Shown piece by piece: positions 3,754 through 43,245 of a stretch of DNA of 64,000 nucleotides (position 1 is the first letter of the stretch; each line of letters starts with the position of its first letter). The DNA comes from Dyella sp. BiH032. Its GTDB lineage: Bacteria; Pseudomonadota; Gammaproteobacteria; Xanthomonadales; Rhodanobacteraceae. Where the stretch lies: contig NZ_CP134867.1 in the NCBI RefSeq assembly GCF_031954525.1, positions 2,418,001 to 2,482,000 of the forward strand, written 5' to 3'. Made by a program: the position numbers and the translations under genes. Below the pieces are notes generated by a model. It was not told the origin of the DNA. It made no database searches and saw only the letters and a program-made list of their open reading frames with translations.

Positions 3754-4880
3754 ACGGGGAGCCACGCGCGCAGATGGAAGCCATGGCCGTTCACGTGGCC
3801 GAATTCGAGACCGCCACCTAGTGCCTGCAAGCGCTCGTGCATGCCGGTGAGGCCATGGCCGGCCTGCGGTGCGCCGCTGCCTTGGCCGTCGTCGCGCATG
3901 TCCAGCACGATCTCGTCGCCGTCGCGGTGCAGGCGTACCCATAGCTGAGCGGCATCGCCATGGCGGGCGGCGTTGGTCAGACCTTCCTGGAAAGCGCGCA
4001 GGAGTGCATCGGCTTGTTCCACCGTCTGCACGCGCGCGTGGCCGGCGATGTCCAGCTGCACGCGTGGACGTGGAAAGGGGGCGGCCATGCTTTGTAGGGC
4101 GGCACTTAAATCCAAGCCATCGTGGAGGCGCAACTGATGCACCACGGCGCGCAGGTCATCCAGCAGCTCTTCGGTGAGGCTGGTGCACAGGGCGATGGTC
4201 TGGGCCTGGTCGAGCTGGGGATTGTGTTTGAGCGCACTGAGATTGAGGCGCAGCGCGGTGAGCTTGTGGCCGGCCACGTCGTGCAGCTCGCGCGATAGCC
4301 GTAGCCGCTCCTGGCCGCGTGCGATCTCCGCCAGTACGCCGCGTGTCGCCAGCAGTTCCGCATGCGCCTGCGCGAGCTGTGCGCGGGCGTGTTCCGTGCG
4401 CAACATCGAGGTGACCAGCAGAATGGCCAGCAACTGCAGGCTGGCGTGCAGGCCGACGTAGGTATAAGGCGTATCCATCTGGCGAAACGCCAGGACGATG
4501 GCCAGCAGCAGAAGGTTGGCGATGGCATAGACCGCGACCAGCCCGCGCGTCGGCAGCAGGGTGGCAAAGGTCAGCATCGGGATGATCAGCAGCGCCGCCG
4601 CCGAGTTGTAGCGATAGAGCGCGACCAGCAGCAACGCCATGCCCACCAGCGCGGCGGCCAGCAGCAGGTGCACGGCGCGGCGCGGGCGCCAGGCGAGCGA
4701 TGCCAGGAACACTGCGGCAAACAGTGCATGCAGACCCGGTACCCACTGGCGCACGGGCAGTGCGCTTGCCTGCGCTGTCGGCACGATAGGGCCGAACCAT
4801 AGCTCCAGCCCGACGGCCAGCCAGGCGACCCCTCCGGCCATGGCCATCGCGGCGTACAGGAAGGAGGGTGGCCGGTTCAT
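3744..4880 (-). CDS. Membrane sensor histidine kinase (HisKA_3/NarX-DesK type)
   Basis: A 378-residue inner-membrane kinase. About five to six hydrophobic segments occupy residues 10-160. A short coiled linker follows (ARAQLAQAHAELLA), then the HisKA_3 dimerisation box with phosphoacceptor His in RLSRELHDVAGHK. The HATPase_c domain has EGLTNAARHG (N box) and DDGQGSG...GHGLTGM (G boxes). No periplasmic sensor domain is visible, so it probably senses a membrane or small-ligand signal, as DesK-like kinases do. The Met at 4880 was chosen because membrane segments begin immediately after it; an upstream Met at 4973 is possible. It phosphorylates the regulator it overlaps. Confidence 0.85.
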   Translation of the reverse strand: MNRPPSFLYAAMAMAGGVAWLAVGLELWFGPIVPTAQASALPVRQWVPGLHALFAAVFLASLAWRPRRAVHLLLAAALVGMALLLVALYRYNSAAALLIIPMLTFATLLPTRGLVAVYAIANLLLLAIVLAFRQMDTPYTYVGLHASLQLLAILLVTSMLRTEHARAQLAQAHAELLATRGVLAEIARGQERLRLSRELHDVAGHKLTALRLNLSALKHNPQLDQAQTIALCTSLTEELLDDLRAVVHQLRLHDGLDLSAALQSMAAPFPRPRVQLDIAGHARVQTVEQADALLRAFQEGLTNAARHGDAAQLWVRLHRDGDEIVLDMRDDGQGSGAPQAGHGLTGMHERLQALGGGLEFGHVNGHGFHLRAWLPVCP

Positions 4881-5023: not shown

Positions 5024-6106
5024 ATGAACCGCACTGCTGGACGACTGTTGAAAAGAGGCGCGATCGTTGTGGCATTCCTGCTGATCATCGCGCTGGGCAT
5101 CACGGCCATACCCGCCATTACCGTCGGCGGCCGCAATGACTTCGCCACCAGCTTGCCGAAAGCCGGCGTGGTCCATCCCGAGGCCATTCGGCAGGCGTAC
5201 GGCTTCCTGGCCAAGGACACGCGCTTCGACGCCTTCGTCGCCTTGCAGGACGGCCAGGAGCTGGCCCGCTGGGGCGAGGCGGATCTGCCGATCAACACGC
5301 ACTCGGTGCGCAAAAGCCTGTTGAGCGGGCTGTACGGCATCGCGGTGGAAAAGGGTTACGTGCGGCTGGACCAGACGCTGGCCGAGCTGGGTATCGACGA
5401 CAACGTCGTGCCGCTGACGGCGATGGAGAAGAGCGCGACGGTGCGCGACCTGCTGATGTCGCGTTCGGGCGTCTATATCGAGGCGGCTGGTGAGGTGCAG
5501 GGCATGAAAGACCGGCGGCCGCGCCGCGGCTCGCATCGGCCCGGTGAGTTCTTCTACTACAACAACTGGGACTTCAACGTGCTGGGCGTGATCTTCGAAC
5601 AGCGCACCGGCATGAGCATCGGCCAGGCCTTCAACGAATGGATCGCCAAGCCCACCGGCATGACGCGCTTCAAGCCGGAGCACGTGATCTACGAGCAGCC
5701 GCGCTATACGCAGCATCGCCAGTTCGTGATCTTTCTGTCGGCCGCCGATCTCGCCCGGTTCGGCATGCTGTACGCCAACGGCGGGCGATGGGGAACGGCT
5801 CAGGTAATTCCCGAGCATTGGGTGGCGGAGAGTACGCGTGCCTACTCGGCCGTGAACGATATGGACCCGTTCACCGGCTATGGCTACCTGTGGTGGATCG
5901 ATAGCGACGGCTACGTGTGGGCCGATGGATGGGGCGGCCAGTTCATGCTCGTCGATGCCCGCCGCCACCAGGTGCTGGTGGCGCGCAACGATACCGGCCG
6001 CAGCTTGTTGCAGATGGGGTGGTTCGTGCTGTTCGACGGGGATGGATGGCGCAGCCATCAGCAGCGGTTGCATGCGCTGATGGTGGAGGCGGTGGATAAG
6101 ACCTGA
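5024..6106 (+). CDS. Serine hydrolase, beta-lactamase/class C-like
   Basis: A 360-residue protein with an N-terminal membrane anchor or uncleaved signal (residues 12-28), so the catalytic domain faces the periplasm. The class C-type motifs are present: SVRK (SxxK nucleophile), YNN (YxN) and a C-terminal DGWGGQ in place of the usual HxG/KTG motif. Such proteins act as esterases, D-amino acid peptidases or unknown hydrolases, and beta-lactamase activity is not implied. The start at 5024 has GGAG upstream and begins just before the anchor. It is divergent from the two-component operon and probably controlled by it. Confidence 0.82.
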   Translation: MNRTAGRLLKRGAIVVAFLLIIALGITAIPAITVGGRNDFATSLPKAGVVHPEAIRQAYGFLAKDTRFDAFVALQDGQELARWGEADLPINTHSVRKSLLSGLYGIAVEKGYVRLDQTLAELGIDDNVVPLTAMEKSATVRDLLMSRSGVYIEAAGEVQGMKDRRPRRGSHRPGEFFYYNNWDFNVLGVIFEQRTGMSIGQAFNEWIAKPTGMTRFKPEHVIYEQPRYTQHRQFVIFLSAADLARFGMLYANGGRWGTAQVIPEHWVAESTRAYSAVNDMDPFTGYGYLWWIDSDGYVWADGWGGQFMLVDARRHQVLVARNDTGRSLLQMGWFVLFDGDGWRSHQQRLHALMVEAVDKT

Positions 6107-38885: not shown

Positions 38886-39233
38886 CTAGCCGCCGATGCC
38901 GCCGCCGCTCATCAGCAACCCGAAGCATGCGGCCACGAGCAGCAGGACGACGGCCACGATCGAAGCCAGGCCCAGCAGCATGCCCCGGCCGGTACGTGTC
39001 CTGCCGTTGGTAAGGAACAGGACGGCGACGATCAGGATCGCTACCGGTGGCGCCAGCCAGAATGCGATATTGATCGGCCCGACGATCAGGCTGCCGCCGA
39101 TCATGATCGCCCAGGCCAGGCCGATGCCGCCGAGCAGCGAGCCCTGGCTGTCGCGAGGATTCGGTGGTGCCGCGGAGCCGGGAGGGTCGGGCGGCAGCGG
39201 CGCCGGGCCGGAGGGTGGCAACTGCTCGCTCAT
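38886..39233 (-). CDS. Small membrane protein of the radical SAM operon
   Basis: A 115-residue protein. The first 40 residues are Pro/Ser-rich and probably cytoplasmic, followed by three or four membrane helices (LLGGIGLAWAIMIGGSLIVG, FWLAPPVAILIVAVLFLT, MLLGLASIVAVVLLLVAACFGLLM). Its start overlaps the stop of the radical SAM gene (ATGA), so the two are co-translated. No family is recognised beyond a general resemblance to small Pro-rich multi-helix proteins. Confidence 0.7.
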   Translation of the reverse strand: MSEQLPPSGPAPLPPDPPGSAAPPNPRDSQGSLLGGIGLAWAIMIGGSLIVGPINIAFWLAPPVAILIVAVLFLTNGRTRTGRGMLLGLASIVAVVLLLVAACFGLLMSGGGIGG

Positions 39234-40666
39234 GCGGACGTCCTCTCGATGTGGCGGGCCTGCTCGATTTCGCGCCGCAGTGCTTCCAGCTTGGCGGCCT
39301 TGTCGTCGCGGTAGAACAAGTTGAACGTATCGAACGGAATGATGCGCCCGTCCGGCTGGGCGATGTGCACGCAGGACTTTTTCACTGCGCGCAGATCGAA
39401 GCCGTGCGCATCGATGAACTGCATGATCAGTACACGGAACACGTTGCGATAGCCCAGGTCCGCCGGCGCCTGCACTTGGGGCAGGCAGCACAGCAGGTCG
39501 GACAGCGAGCAGGCCTGCGATTCCGGGGAGTGGTTGGTGGCGAACAGCTCGAACACGTGCGCGCGCAGTTCCTCGTCGCGCTCCACCACGATGGTGTTGC
39601 GGCCCTTGCCGACAAGCGTCTCCGGCGAGACGAAGCGGGTGAGCGGTACGACCTGCTCGCCCAGCTTGAGTGCATAGGCCATGGCCAGGCAGTCCGGGTT
39701 GCAGGGCACGGGGATCAGGTCGTCGGGACGGAACACGCCGCTTTGCTCGAGGATGCGGCGGCGCACTTCGCTGAGCGTCAGCCGATCGCGCTCCGGGTCG
39801 TAGCCTTCCAGGCGGCCGGCGGCCTGGATCGGCTGGAAGGTCACGCCGCGCACGCAGGGCTGGGTGAGTGCGAAGTCGATGATCTCGCCCAGTTCGCCGT
39901 CGTTGAGCCCCTTCTTCACCGTCACCACCAGCGTGGTGGAGATGTCGTGGCGGTTGAGGTGTTCGAGCGCCTTCAGGCGCACATCGCGCAGCTTTGCGCC
40001 GCGCAGGTCCTTGTGGACCTCGTCACGCAGCGAGTCGAATTGCAGATAGAGCTCGAAGCCTGGCTGGTAGGTGGCGAGGCGCGCGGCGAAGTCGGGCTCC
40101 TTCGCAATGCGCAGGCCATTGGTATTCACCATCAGGTGGCGGATCGGCCGACGCTTCGCCGCGTCCAGGATGGCGAAGAAATCGGGGTGCAGCGTGGGTT
40201 CGCCGCCCGAGAGCTGTACCACGTCCGGTTCGCCCTCGTTGGCCACGACCGCATCCAGCATGCGTTCCACCGTGGCCAGGTCGCGGAAGCCGGGGCGATG
40301 CGGGCCGCTTTCCGCATAGCAGATGGGGCAGCGCAGGTTGCAGTGGTCGGTGATCTCCACCAGCGTCAGGCAGGAGTGCTGCATGTGCTCAGGGCACAGA
40401 CCGCAGTCGTATGGGCAGCCGAAATGCTGCGGAGTGTTGAAACGCTGGGGCAGTTCCGGCGGTTTGATGTAGATCTCGCGGCACTGCCGGTAGTACGCCG
40501 CGTCGTCGGCCAGCAGCACGCGTTCGCGGCCGTGATGCGGGCACCATTTCTCGAGGTAGACGCGCTCGTCCTTGATGAGCACTTTCGCTTCCACCCGGCG
40601 CAGGCAGGTTGTGCAGACCGATACCGCGCTGTCGTAGAAGAGATATGGCCTTACCTTGGCTCCCAC
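39230..40666 (-). CDS. Radical SAM enzyme of the Tes/MJ0619-like family
   Basis: A 478-residue iron-sulfur enzyme. N-terminal cysteines CTTC (18-21) and WCPHHG (41-46) precede GCPYDCGLCPEH (83-94) and C99. The radical SAM cluster motif is CNLRCPIC (109-116), followed by QLSGGEPTLHP. More cysteines lie in the C-terminal third (PVPCNPDCLA, CSLSDLLCC). This layout matches the archaeal tetraether lipid synthase Tes/MJ0619 family and the bacterial radical SAM enzymes proposed to make membrane-spanning lipids. The GTG at 40666 has a perfect AGGAGG 8 bases upstream. It overlaps the Lgt-like gene by 16 bp. A lipid C-C coupling or alkyl-modifying role is inferred. Confidence 0.78.
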   Translation of the reverse strand: MGAKVRPYLFYDSAVSVCTTCLRRVEAKVLIKDERVYLEKWCPHHGRERVLLADDAAYYRQCREIYIKPPELPQRFNTPQHFGCPYDCGLCPEHMQHSCLTLVEITDHCNLRCPICYAESGPHRPGFRDLATVERMLDAVVANEGEPDVVQLSGGEPTLHPDFFAILDAAKRRPIRHLMVNTNGLRIAKEPDFAARLATYQPGFELYLQFDSLRDEVHKDLRGAKLRDVRLKALEHLNRHDISTTLVVTVKKGLNDGELGEIIDFALTQPCVRGVTFQPIQAAGRLEGYDPERDRLTLSEVRRRILEQSGVFRPDDLIPVPCNPDCLAMAYALKLGEQVVPLTRFVSPETLVGKGRNTIVVERDEELRAHVFELFATNHSPESQACSLSDLLCCLPQVQAPADLGYRNVFRVLIMQFIDAHGFDLRAVKKSCVHIAQPDGRIIPFDTFNLFYRDDKAAKLEALRREIEQARHIERTSA

Positions 40667-41403
40667 GCGTCGTGCCTCCTGGCGAACAGCGCCCGCAGGA
40701 TGCGGGGCAGGTCGCGATGGTAATAGAGCAATCCCGCGATACACAGCAACTGCAGGCCGGAGAGCGCATGCAGATAGGCGTAGGGCAGGGGCTTGATCCA
40801 TTCCACCAGCAGGCGGAACGAGAGGTAGCCGATCATGAAGGCACGGAAGCGGTCGCCGGGGCGGGCGAGGGCGTGGCGGCGCGCATGGATCAGCGCGTAC
40901 TGGGCCAGCAGGAAGGCGATCTCGTACAGCTGGGTGGGATGCCGCGGCTGGCCGTCGCCGAAGTCGACGCCCCAGGGCAGTGAGGTAGGGTTGCCGTAGG
41001 TGTGGTCGGACAAGCCGGCCAGGAAGCAGCCCACGCGGCCGATGCACATGCCCACGGTCAGCGGCAGCACGAAGGCATCGCCGGTGGATGGGCGCACGCC
41101 GGCTATTTTCTTCGCCAGTTCTACGCCAAGCAGGCCGCCGAGCAGTGCACCGACGATCGACTTGCCTTCGATCAGCCGCGCCAGGTCGGGAAAGTTCGCG
41201 AAGGCCGCCAGCGGGTCGTCGATCCAGAACGCCAGCTTCGCTCCCAGAGCCGCGCCCACGATGGCGCCGACGCCGACCCAGGCCACGTGGTCGTCATGGG
41301 CGAAGGCATGGGGCGCGACTTTCTTGCGCGTCCACAGGAAGGTGCGGAAGCCGACCGCGTAGGCCAGCGCCTCGAAAAGCGTGTGCAGCGCGACGGGGCT
41401 CAT
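40651..41403 (-). CDS. Lgt-like membrane protein (prolipoprotein diacylglyceryl transferase family)
   Basis: A 250-residue protein with seven or so membrane helices and two Lgt landmarks: GRVGCFLAGLSDHTYG (the signature Gly-Arg segment) and RHPTQLYE. The functional HGG motif of true Lgt is replaced (SIVGALLGGLLG), and the conserved Asn of the signature is Cys. It is therefore probably a paralogue that handles a phospholipid or diacylglyceryl group in another reaction rather than the essential lipoprotein enzyme. It is embedded in the radical SAM operon with overlaps, suggesting a joint lipid pathway. Confidence 0.75.
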   Translation of the reverse strand: MSPVALHTLFEALAYAVGFRTFLWTRKKVAPHAFAHDDHVAWVGVGAIVGAALGAKLAFWIDDPLAAFANFPDLARLIEGKSIVGALLGGLLGVELAKKIAGVRPSTGDAFVLPLTVGMCIGRVGCFLAGLSDHTYGNPTSLPWGVDFGDGQPRHPTQLYEIAFLLAQYALIHARRHALARPGDRFRAFMIGYLSFRLLVEWIKPLPYAYLHALSGLQLLCIAGLLYYHRDLPRILRALFARRHDAWEPR

Positions 41404-41422
41404 GAATGGCCCGGCATTGCGC

Positions 41423-42175
41423 TCAGGACTCGCCCAGCCGTGTCAGTTCCAGCTTGGCGGCCTTGAGCCAGGCCTGTTCCTTGCGGCGGTAATAGCCGGG
41501 CATCAGCTTGGCGCGGCGCAGTTGCGCTTCAAATACGTCGCGCGCCTCGGCGAGGCGCTGGTGACGGCCGAGCAGGCGACCATAACGGAAGCGGCCTTCC
41601 TCGCCGGGGTAGCTGTCGGCCAGCACGCGGTATTCCTCCAGCGCGGCATCGGTCTCGCCCAGTTCCTCCAGGCAGCGGGCATAGAGCAGATGCCCTTCGC
41701 TGGAACGGTAGGAAGGATTGGCCGCGATCAGGGCCTCGAGGGTCTGCCGGGCCTCGGTGTACGCACCGCTGCCGGCCTGCGCCTGGGCCAGGCCCAGCAT
41801 GAAGTCCGGTTCGGTGGCGTACATGCCGACGAGCAGGCTGCGGAACAGCTCCTGGGCATTGGCGTAATCGCCGAGGTCGAGGCACTCCTGGGCCAGCCGG
41901 CGGCGGTTGTCGACGGTGTCGCTCAGCTCCAGCCGGCGCTGCAGCTCGCGGCGGCGGCGCTGCGGGTCGATCACCTGCATGGCCTTGCTGGCGGCCTGGC
42001 GGCCGCGCGGATCGTGCCGCAGGTCCGGAAGTACGGCGACCAGCACGTAGACGGCGACGGCGAGATACGAGCCGATCAGGATCAGCCAGATCCAGTAGAG
42101 CGGGCGTCCGCTGCGCACCACATGCACGGCGCAGCCCACCTGCAGGGCCAGGGACAGCAGAACGACGACGGGCAT
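41423..42175 (-). CDS. Membrane-anchored TPR protein
   Basis: A 250-residue protein with two N-terminal membrane helices (VVVLLSLALQVGCAVHVV, YWIWLILIGSYLAVAVYVLVAV), a basic linker (QRRRRELQRRLELSD) and four to five tetratricopeptide repeats facing the cytoplasm (e.g. NAQELFRSLL, ARQTLEALIAANPSY, ALEEYRVLADSYPG). TPRs usually assemble partner proteins. The ATG at 42175 is preceded by AAGGAGAG. It lies 19 bp before the Lgt-like gene as first gene of the tight operon. Confidence 0.78.
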   Translation of the reverse strand: MPVVVLLSLALQVGCAVHVVRSGRPLYWIWLILIGSYLAVAVYVLVAVLPDLRHDPRGRQAASKAMQVIDPQRRRRELQRRLELSDTVDNRRRLAQECLDLGDYANAQELFRSLLVGMYATEPDFMLGLAQAQAGSGAYTEARQTLEALIAANPSYRSSEGHLLYARCLEELGETDAALEEYRVLADSYPGEEGRFRYGRLLGRHQRLAEARDVFEAQLRRAKLMPGYYRRKEQAWLKAAKLELTRLGES

Positions 42176-42335: not shown

Positions 42336-43031
42336 TCAGTCGCGATGGGCGGCGCTGCGGTCGCGGTCCGCGCCGAGTTTGCGATCCAGCGAGCCGAACA
42401 GCTTCTTGAAGGCCCGGGCGAACTTGCCGCGCTTGGTCTTGCGCAGCTTTTCCTCCTCGCTGGTGAGCCAGGCCACCTGGATCACCCGGCGCTCGCCCTC
42501 GTAGGGCAGGTGGCCGTGGAAGGAATTCTCGCAACGCTTGAACACCGCGAACTCGCCGTACAGCGGCTTCAGCTCCGGCGCCACGATGTCGTCGATGTTG
42601 TCGATGCTGCCCAGGAAGCGCAGGCAGCCGTCGCTGGTGTCCGGCCACTGCGTGTTGAGGTAGAGCAGGGCGGTGGCCACTTTCGACTTGCTGTCGGTGT
42701 GGATGGTGCCGTGGCGCTTGTTGAGCGAGCGGCACAGGGTCACCAGGGTCGGGTACTGGCCGAGGTTGTCGATGCCCAGCTTCTTGCCGATCGCGCCGGC
42801 GAATTCCGGCGTGGTCAGGCGTTCGACCAGCGCATTGACCGTAGGGCCGCAATCGCTGGGGTCGTAGGGGAAGAAGCCGGCGCTCGTGTACCGCGGGAAA
42901 TCGCGTTCCAGGTCGGAGCGCAATTCGTCGGGCAGCTGTCCATGGGCGATCATGAACGGGAACGGCTCGAGCCTGATTTCCGTGTCCGGCCGGTCGAGAC
43001 GGGCAGGATCGAGCAGGACGGCAGCGCTCAT
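42336..43031 (-). CDS. 2-oxoglutarate/Fe(II)-dependent oxygenase
   Basis: A 231-residue protein with the jelly-roll dioxygenase triad: His and Asp in TIHTDSKSK, a distal His in NSFHGHLPYEGERRVIQVAW, and the following Arg for 2-oxoglutarate binding. Such enzymes hydroxylate peptides or small molecules. The charged C-terminus (KLRKTKRGKFARAFKKLF) could bind acidic lipid or nucleic acid. AAGGAG upstream fits the ATG at 43031; a second ATG at 43043 is too close to it. It lies 160 bp upstream of the TPR gene on the same strand and may belong to that operon. Confidence 0.75.
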   Translation of the reverse strand: MSAAVLLDPARLDRPDTEIRLEPFPFMIAHGQLPDELRSDLERDFPRYTSAGFFPYDPSDCGPTVNALVERLTTPEFAGAIGKKLGIDNLGQYPTLVTLCRSLNKRHGTIHTDSKSKVATALLYLNTQWPDTSDGCLRFLGSIDNIDDIVAPELKPLYGEFAVFKRCENSFHGHLPYEGERRVIQVAWLTSEEEKLRKTKRGKFARAFKKLFGSLDRKLGADRDRSAAHRD

Positions 43032-43245
43032 GGACGTGTGCATCTCCTTTTGAACGGGCGCTAGTGTAACGCTTGTGCGGTCATCGGGCGGACACAAACA
43101 CGCATCTTTCACGCTCCGCGCGGTGGACAGAAAGGTCGCTCACGCCTATCATTGCGACCCGCCCTGAGACTTTCCTCGACCAAGGTCCACAAGCTGCTTC
43201 GCAGCGGCTTGCGGACTTTGCTGCACCTAAAAGGCGGCCCCTTCC

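Follow-up and report, generated by a model that had tools for sequence, protein, structure and literature searches.

Organization of the Locus

Here we examine a gene module built around a radical S-adenosylmethionine (SAM) enzyme and a paralog of the diacylglyceryl transferase Lgt, as found in a 64,000-nucleotide stretch of the Dyella sp. BiH032 genome (hereafter the window; NZ_CP134867.1, positions 2,418,001 to 2,482,000). An earlier interpretation made from the letters of this DNA (the sequence-only reading) described four genes that overlap or lie within 19 bp of each other, and the coordinates agree: the run occupies 38886–42175 on the minus strand, with each gene overlapping its neighbor or separated from it by at most 19 nt. 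The features are as follows.

39230..40666, minus strand: radical SAM enzyme of the Tes/TrsS superfamily, 478 amino acids
40651..41403, minus strand: Lgt paralog (PF01790), 250 amino acids; equivalents of R143, R239, Y235 and G154 retained; substitutions, from E. coli numbering to the window's protein, H103 to V84, N146 to C126 and Y26 to H7
38886..39233, minus strand: small membrane protein, 115 amino acids, with a proline-rich N-terminus followed by about three predicted transmembrane (TM) helices; sole cysteine C103
38925..38927, minus strand: codon of C103, the TM cysteine (context LLLVAACFG), invariant in the 41 downstream small proteins aligned
41423..42175, minus strand: TPR protein with N-terminal membrane helices, 250 amino acids; opens the run but lies outside the core

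A 19-nt gap separates the end of the TPR gene from the Lgt-like gene. The next two junctions are overlaps, of 16 nt between the start of the radical SAM gene and the Lgt-like stop and of 4 nt between the radical SAM stop and the small-protein gene. The radical SAM start was placed at the GTG at 40666, following the start of its relatives. The 115-residue protein had no match in Pfam or NCBIfam, and a scan for promoters and terminators returned nothing on the minus strand.

Conservation of the Radical SAM–Lgt Pair

A contig scan with the radical SAM protein as the only query gave 284 confirmed relatives. The best 80 of these, chosen by the radical SAM protein, together with the window's own locus make up the 81 loci compared here. 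By their titles, the 80 relatives come from Pseudomonadota, Acidobacteriota, Bacillota, Myxococcota, Omnitrophota, Elusimicrobia, Methylacidiphilales and one cyanobacterial bin. A same-strand Lgt-like gene lies within 4.5 kb of the radical SAM gene at 75 of the 81 loci; among the remaining six, three are on a short contig or close to the end of one (L042, L054, L077), two have an Lgt-like gene on the other strand only (L057, L062) and one has none (L023).

Genome surveys of three lineages gave the same picture. Across 358 genomes (three of them survey centers that carry the module by choice), the enzyme was present in 55, the Lgt paralog in 54 and both in 54. Specifically, the enzyme was detected in 9/59 genomes of the window's own family, with the paralog in those same 9 (thresholds E 1e-60 for the enzyme and 1e-15 for the paralog; in one genome, G323, the enzyme is split over two frames). 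Among Terriglobales, 22/150 genomes carried the enzyme, 21/150 the paralog and 21 both (1e-120 and 1e-18), the exception being G404, where the match covers only enzyme residues 61–468. Paenibacillales had the enzyme in 24/149 genomes and the paralog in those same 24 (1e-100 and 1e-18). At these thresholds, no genome of the 358 carried the paralog without the enzyme.

The association is also nearly exclusive to this enzyme group. When 299 Pseudomonadota genomes were surveyed with the Tes model, nine (one of them the window's own) scored above 200 bits, followed by a gap down to 89 bits, and in all nine the Lgt paralog adjoins the gene. Twenty-one weaker loci from that survey (L093–L113), which encode generic radical SAM proteins, had no Lgt paralog and were excluded from a further comparison of 69 loci, each examined over a stretch of about 1.5 kb on either side. 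Module loci were defined there by more than 500 bits to the window's enzyme, every other locus scoring at most 335. Of the 18 module loci, the window's own included, 17 have the paralog within the stretch (the miss is L175), as against 1 of 51 non-module loci (Tes, TrsS, a long Terriglobales form, a cousin group and L164), this one being a partial 66-bit match at L164. These 69 loci are partly redundant by genome (L179 is the same as L025, L159 and L160 the same as L128 and L129, and L177 and L178 are near copies). As the pairing recurs at the 81 loci and in three genome surveys, chance or an assembly artefact is ruled out as its source.

The paralog is an addition to the ordinary complement: a separate, better-scoring Lgt was present in 12/12 genomes tested and in the window's own. 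At two loci (L020:4500-5986 and L021:3269-4806), two tandem Lgt-family genes immediately precede the radical SAM gene.

The other members of the run are conserved to a much smaller extent. With neighbors taken from the gene caller, relatives of the TPR gene occur at 10/81 loci (the window's own, Dyella and Oleiagrimonas), and those of a 2-oxoglutarate (2OG)-Fe(II) oxygenase-like gene upstream of the run (42336–43112, minus strand) at 14/81. The latter gene is possibly part of the local transcription unit; beyond it lie opposite-strand genes that we take, by eye, to be carA and carB. Both the TPR protein and the 2OG oxygenase were ruled out as core parts on these counts. The conserved core is therefore three genes rather than four, so that of the four-gene operon first proposed as a unit, the radical SAM–Lgt pair holds and the TPR gene drops out.

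Open-literature searches aimed at the Lgt paralog and the radical SAM enzyme returned no description of the pair, with subscription journals mostly uncovered. We know of no system that combines these parts, each of which comes from a known superfamily.

A Radical SAM Clade Apart from Tes and TrsS

The closest solved structures to the radical SAM enzyme are 7TOL and 7TOM, and it has the Tes fold. In the available text of the MJ0619 structure paper (PMC9433317), the Tes ligands are given as a CX2CX20CX2H rubredoxin-type site, an N-terminal cluster held by C, C, C and H, and the radical SAM motif CX3CX2C. The window's enzyme has the corresponding sets (zinc-ribbon/rubredoxin C18, C21, C42 and H45; N-terminal cluster C84, C88, C91 and H94; radical SAM C109, C113 and C116), and these are conserved throughout the 81 module proteins: C18 and C21 in all 75 rows that have a letter there (six gaps), C42 and H45 in 80/80 (one gap) and the rest in 81/81.

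Beyond these shared sites, the module enzyme departs from Tes / GDGT-MAS (MJ0619) in several residues. C99, C322, C393, C394 and C432 are invariant across the 81 module proteins. In a 67-row alignment, the C393–C394 pair is restricted to the module, and C99, C322 and C432 also appear in some other groups; Tes rows have neither the pair nor C99. The cysteine of the Tes PFC motif is replaced by D or E in all 43 module rows. The Met439 position holds M in 58, V in 20 and I in 3 of the 81 proteins, and the Tyr459 position is I or F in the module rows shown. Both residues are stated to be completely conserved in 1000 archaeal Tes homologs, and M439A and Y459 variants to remain active in vitro (PMC9433317, available text). 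Because the variants stay active, the changes at these two positions bear on Tes membership and not on activity. We infer that the module enzyme carries a rebuilt third-cluster site; the AlphaFold model is unreliable at residues 354–401, which include C393–C394.

Family models and phylogeny place the enzyme outside both named groups. It scored 270.4 bits against the Tes model NF045702 (curated cut-off 450) and 328.6 bits, over residues 14–455, against the TrsS model NF045646 (cut-off 490), its best NCBIfam match, and so reached neither cut-off. In a tree of the 67 rows, the 43 module proteins form one clade (100/99), and a 100/97 branch parts this clade from Tes and the long Terriglobales form; TrsS and the cousins each form a clade of their own. 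Long branches flagged at L164 and TrsS make the order among the non-Tes groups unsure. TrsS and the module thus share a side of the Tes/non-Tes branch, but the three TrsS rows form a clade of their own, keep the PFC cysteine and are without the CC pair, and none of the six TrsS loci (stretches of at most about 1.5 kb each side) has the Lgt paralog that nearly always accompanies the module enzyme and sets it apart from Tes as well. The cut-offs and the tree rule out filing the enzyme as Tes or TrsS. The label "Tes/MJ0619-like" given to it by the sequence-only reading, which had itself proposed a phylogeny with Tes, is apt for the fold and most metal sites; an assignment to bacterial Tes is not supported, given the position outside the Tes clade, the low Tes-model score and the altered Tes-invariant residues.

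Three side observations concern this superfamily. Some public annotations (P0014, P0070, P0082) name the enzyme hydroxymethylpterin dimethyltransferase, after the first MJ0619 assignment, which the structure paper, in its available text, calls incorrect (PMC9433317). The cousin clade (L168, L170, L181) is marked by two cysteine-rich motifs, CCFPTC and KCC, and lacks an Lgt paralog within the stretch of about 1.5 kb. TrsS matches from Acidobacteriota (L155, L156, L157) each contain one in-frame TGA, as expected of selenoproteins.

Comparison with Lipid-Coupling Enzymes

Our main rival to the lipidation reading developed below is a free-lipid role of the Tes/Mss type, which is the broad form of what the sequence-only reading proposed. 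Under this explanation, the radical SAM enzyme would couple lipid tails as Tes or Mss would, the Lgt paralog, inactive in transfer, would only present phosphatidylglycerol, and the small protein would be structural. Mss is a bacterial enzyme with proposed fatty-acyl tail coupling, modelled with the Tes architecture. An indirect comparison comes from Thermotoga maritima, which gave no match to the Tes model at E 1e-35 (the window's enzyme, 5e-67) and for which diabolic-acid lipids have been described (reference in PMC13274423, available text). As a proposal made without experimental proof, branched tetraethers have been assigned to bacterial homologs of Tes, of which one survey counted 456 (PMC8941075, PMC11868695, PMC10087280, each as available in part).

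We consider this explanation possible and rather doubtful. The enzyme lies outside the Tes clade and below the Tes cut-off, the PFC cysteine is D or E in 43/43 module rows, Met439 is kept in only 58/81 proteins, and the conserved TM cysteine of the small proteins (see below) is left unexplained. The distribution of the enzyme in Terriglobales also stands against this explanation: the gene is found in 22/150 genomes, and in about 126 of the 150 (counted by score range) the best Tes-model match is a different, long relative.

That same distribution bears on a narrower candidate, namely that the module is the iso-diabolic acid enzyme of Acidobacteria. According to the available text of PMC13274423, iso-diabolic acid makes up 20–40% of the fatty acids across 17 Acidobacteria cultures from subdivisions 1 and 3; the module is unlikely to be its source, because it is present in just 22/150 genomes of Terriglobales (subdivision 1). 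The long relative, encoded in frames of about 700 codons and distinct from the window's enzyme (L131–L143; N-terminal cluster cysteines missing in the five rows aligned), may be the more promising candidate for the acid reported in cultures of this group.

Kept and Changed Residues of the Lgt Paralog

The Lgt-like protein reaches the gathering score of PF01790 and has the Lgt fold, but scores 35.3 bits against TIGR00544, whose curated cut-off of 118.9 it does not reach. Foldseek with its model returned no match at E <=0.001; among candidates re-aligned, 5azb came first. In the E. coli Lgt structure, as far as the available accounts go, R143, Y235 and R239 are placed at the donor phosphatidylglycerol, with the acceptor site proposed to be HGGL; R143, R239, Y235, G142 and G154 are at the donor site or essential.

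Against this background, the equivalents of G104, G142, R143, G154, Y235 and R239 are unchanged in 73/73 paralogs, and the differences from Lgt are found elsewhere. The H103 position is V in 55, I in 15 and L in 3, the next glycine is present in all 73, N146 is replaced by C in 73/73 and Y26 by H in 67/73; E95, K98 and Q218 are newly invariant. The setting differs as well: the gene for the paralog adjoins those for a radical SAM enzyme and for small TM proteins. Precedents exist for individual changes: in the available text of a 2026 paper, some Lgts have Y, W or F at H103, and the Lgt of L. interrogans carries N146C and complements poorly in E. coli, and MSMEG_5408, the second Lgt of Mycobacterium smegmatis, has Y26H and N146C in common with the paralog (PMC13251419, available in part). 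Since the donor residues are kept and H103, N146 and Y26 altered, the changes appear to fall on the acceptor side and to spare the donor site. This refines two earlier statements. The "Lgt-like protein without HGG" has indeed lost the histidine, and it keeps the glycine that follows; the "altered active site" describes the acceptor-side histidine and does not extend to the donor-site arginines, with Y26H and N146C having the mycobacterial precedent.

Small Membrane Proteins with a Conserved Cysteine

The third core component is a set of small membrane proteins; the sequence-only reading listed the window's member and made no remark on its conserved cysteine. Candidates were same-strand open reading frames (ORFs) of 45–160 residues with a Shine–Dalgarno-like site around the pair, and at most loci one to three of them encode membrane proteins in which a helix has a cysteine at its predicted outer end. 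For candidates with at least two predicted helices, the cysteine follows an uncharged hydrophobic stretch in 71 of 77, at 62 of 80 loci; if one helix suffices, a TM-cysteine gene is found at 63 of 80. Eight of the 17 loci missed by the rule have a TM-cysteine gene on inspection. L031, a bin also among the 17, has lipoprotein-like paralogs at 4208–4762 and 5510–5995 flanking the Lgt paralog, with an N-terminal helix ending in MAC or WAC and then a further domain.

The enrichment holds when a single gene caller is used for both sets, with a TM cysteine in 49/54 operon genes (46/80 loci) and in 1/20 comparable genes from 1.2 Mb of three module genomes (Fisher p 3.6e-12). In follow-up stretches, scanned on both strands, a TM-cysteine gene was found in 7/8 from Pseudomonadota, 18/21 from Terriglobales (L199 and L202 being genomes already seen) and 5/8 from other Acidobacteriota (misses L165, L175 and L177; at L171 the protein has 158 residues; L179 and L182 repeat genomes). 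Proteins chosen by position only (start −20 to +120 nt from the radical SAM stop, at least two helices; 40 loci qualify) give, together with the window's, a cysteine at C103 that is invariant in 41/41, a constancy matched only by M1 and G84. On the upstream side of the radical SAM gene, 27/29 ORFs have a cysteine, and 23 align at one column. By a charge-based rule applied to 71 proteins, the predicted topology runs inside to outside in 59, with 7 ties and 5 opposite, and the cysteine lies a median of 20 residues after the preceding charged residue.

Where present, these proteins number one to three per locus, differ from copy to copy and may be encoded on either side of the radical SAM gene. 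At 28 of 62 loci, the small gene closest to the radical SAM gene shares 4 nt with it at one end. Ten of the small proteins, scanned against Pfam, had no hit that reached the cut-off, and L015 has a 63-residue single-helix version that retains AACFG. The window's VAAC fits the lipobox pattern, but sits in the last helix. At L020, L021, L022 and L062, opposite-strand genes beside the module encode proteins of about 210 residues that have a helix at the N-terminus and an unusual LWACAP context.

Two further explanations start from these proteins. In one, they would anchor or assemble the two enzymes, the cysteine serving as a metal ligand, a redox residue or a packing residue. Their small size, the coupling by 4-nt overlap and a sequence that varies save at a few residues all suit this role; diverse copies at either end of the radical SAM gene suit substrates at least equally, and the cysteine is predicted on the working face of Lgt. 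We rate this explanation as unlikely. In the other, the radical SAM enzyme would modify the small protein itself, for example by forming a thioether at the cysteine, with the paralog acting before or after, as in pathways for ribosomally synthesized and post-translationally modified peptides (RiPPs). Radical SAM enzymes beside small cysteine-containing genes are typical of RiPP clusters, as a matter of general knowledge, and some loci have tandem small genes; we regard this explanation as improbable.

A Candidate Lipidation System

The reading that we favor, and hold tentatively as somewhat short of probable, is a dedicated lipidation system in which the paralog would place a diacylglyceryl group on the small-protein cysteine and the radical SAM enzyme would modify the acyl tails. 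Specifically, a phospholipid held at the outer face by the Lgt paralog, probably phosphatidylglycerol, would donate its diacylglyceryl group to the conserved cysteine at the outer TM-helix end of small proteins from the same operon. Either before or after this transfer, the radical SAM enzyme would modify the lipid's acyl tails by a radical, Tes-related chemistry with a changed C-terminal cysteine set. The cysteine is suggested as the acceptor by a paralog that looks donor-competent, by its changed acceptor side and by the position of the cysteine on the working face of Lgt; loss of the HGGL histidine from the proposed acceptor side fits a non-standard acceptor. Acyl-tail chemistry is suggested because the enzyme has the Tes fold. 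More broadly, a tie between a Tes-fold enzyme and the Lgt family that is conserved across phyla and nearly exclusive makes a dedicated lipid-linked pathway, as first put forward for this operon, plausible.

Several points weigh against the lipidation reading. Lipidation of the small proteins is argued by analogy, and the predicted outside position of the cysteine is at odds with the cytosolic location of radical SAM enzymes. The cysteine is in the last helix of many of the small proteins, and many of its contexts (NAAC, GLCG) are off the usual lipobox. Even on inspection, 8/80 loci have no small TM-cysteine gene in the operon, and the same is true of 3/21 Terriglobales and 3/8 other Acidobacteriota follow-up stretches. 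The TM-cysteine rule was defined only after the first loci had been inspected, and a small control from the loci's own flanks has a TM cysteine in 4/9 genes (p 0.0013). Finally, the M. smegmatis Lgt with Y26H and N146C is presumed, in the available part of PMC13251419, to be weakly active.

A stronger form of the lipidation reading, which we consider speculative and on the whole unlikely, is that the radical SAM enzyme remodels or cross-links the attached tails. By this previously undescribed pathway, bacteria of many phyla would produce lipidated membrane proteins that are membrane-spanning or tail-coupled.

Implications

Bacterial Tes relatives are proposed as the makers of branched tetraethers, which serve as climate proxies. 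The module group, with its own clade, cysteine set and near-obligate Lgt partner, should not be counted as Tes by sequence similarity alone. If the lipidation reading is true, radical chemistry would be tied to protein lipidation, and a new class of lipid acceptor would be present in membrane proteins. Even if it is false, the strict pairing with Lgt and the conserved cysteine make the function of this module directly testable in ordinary laboratory bacteria.

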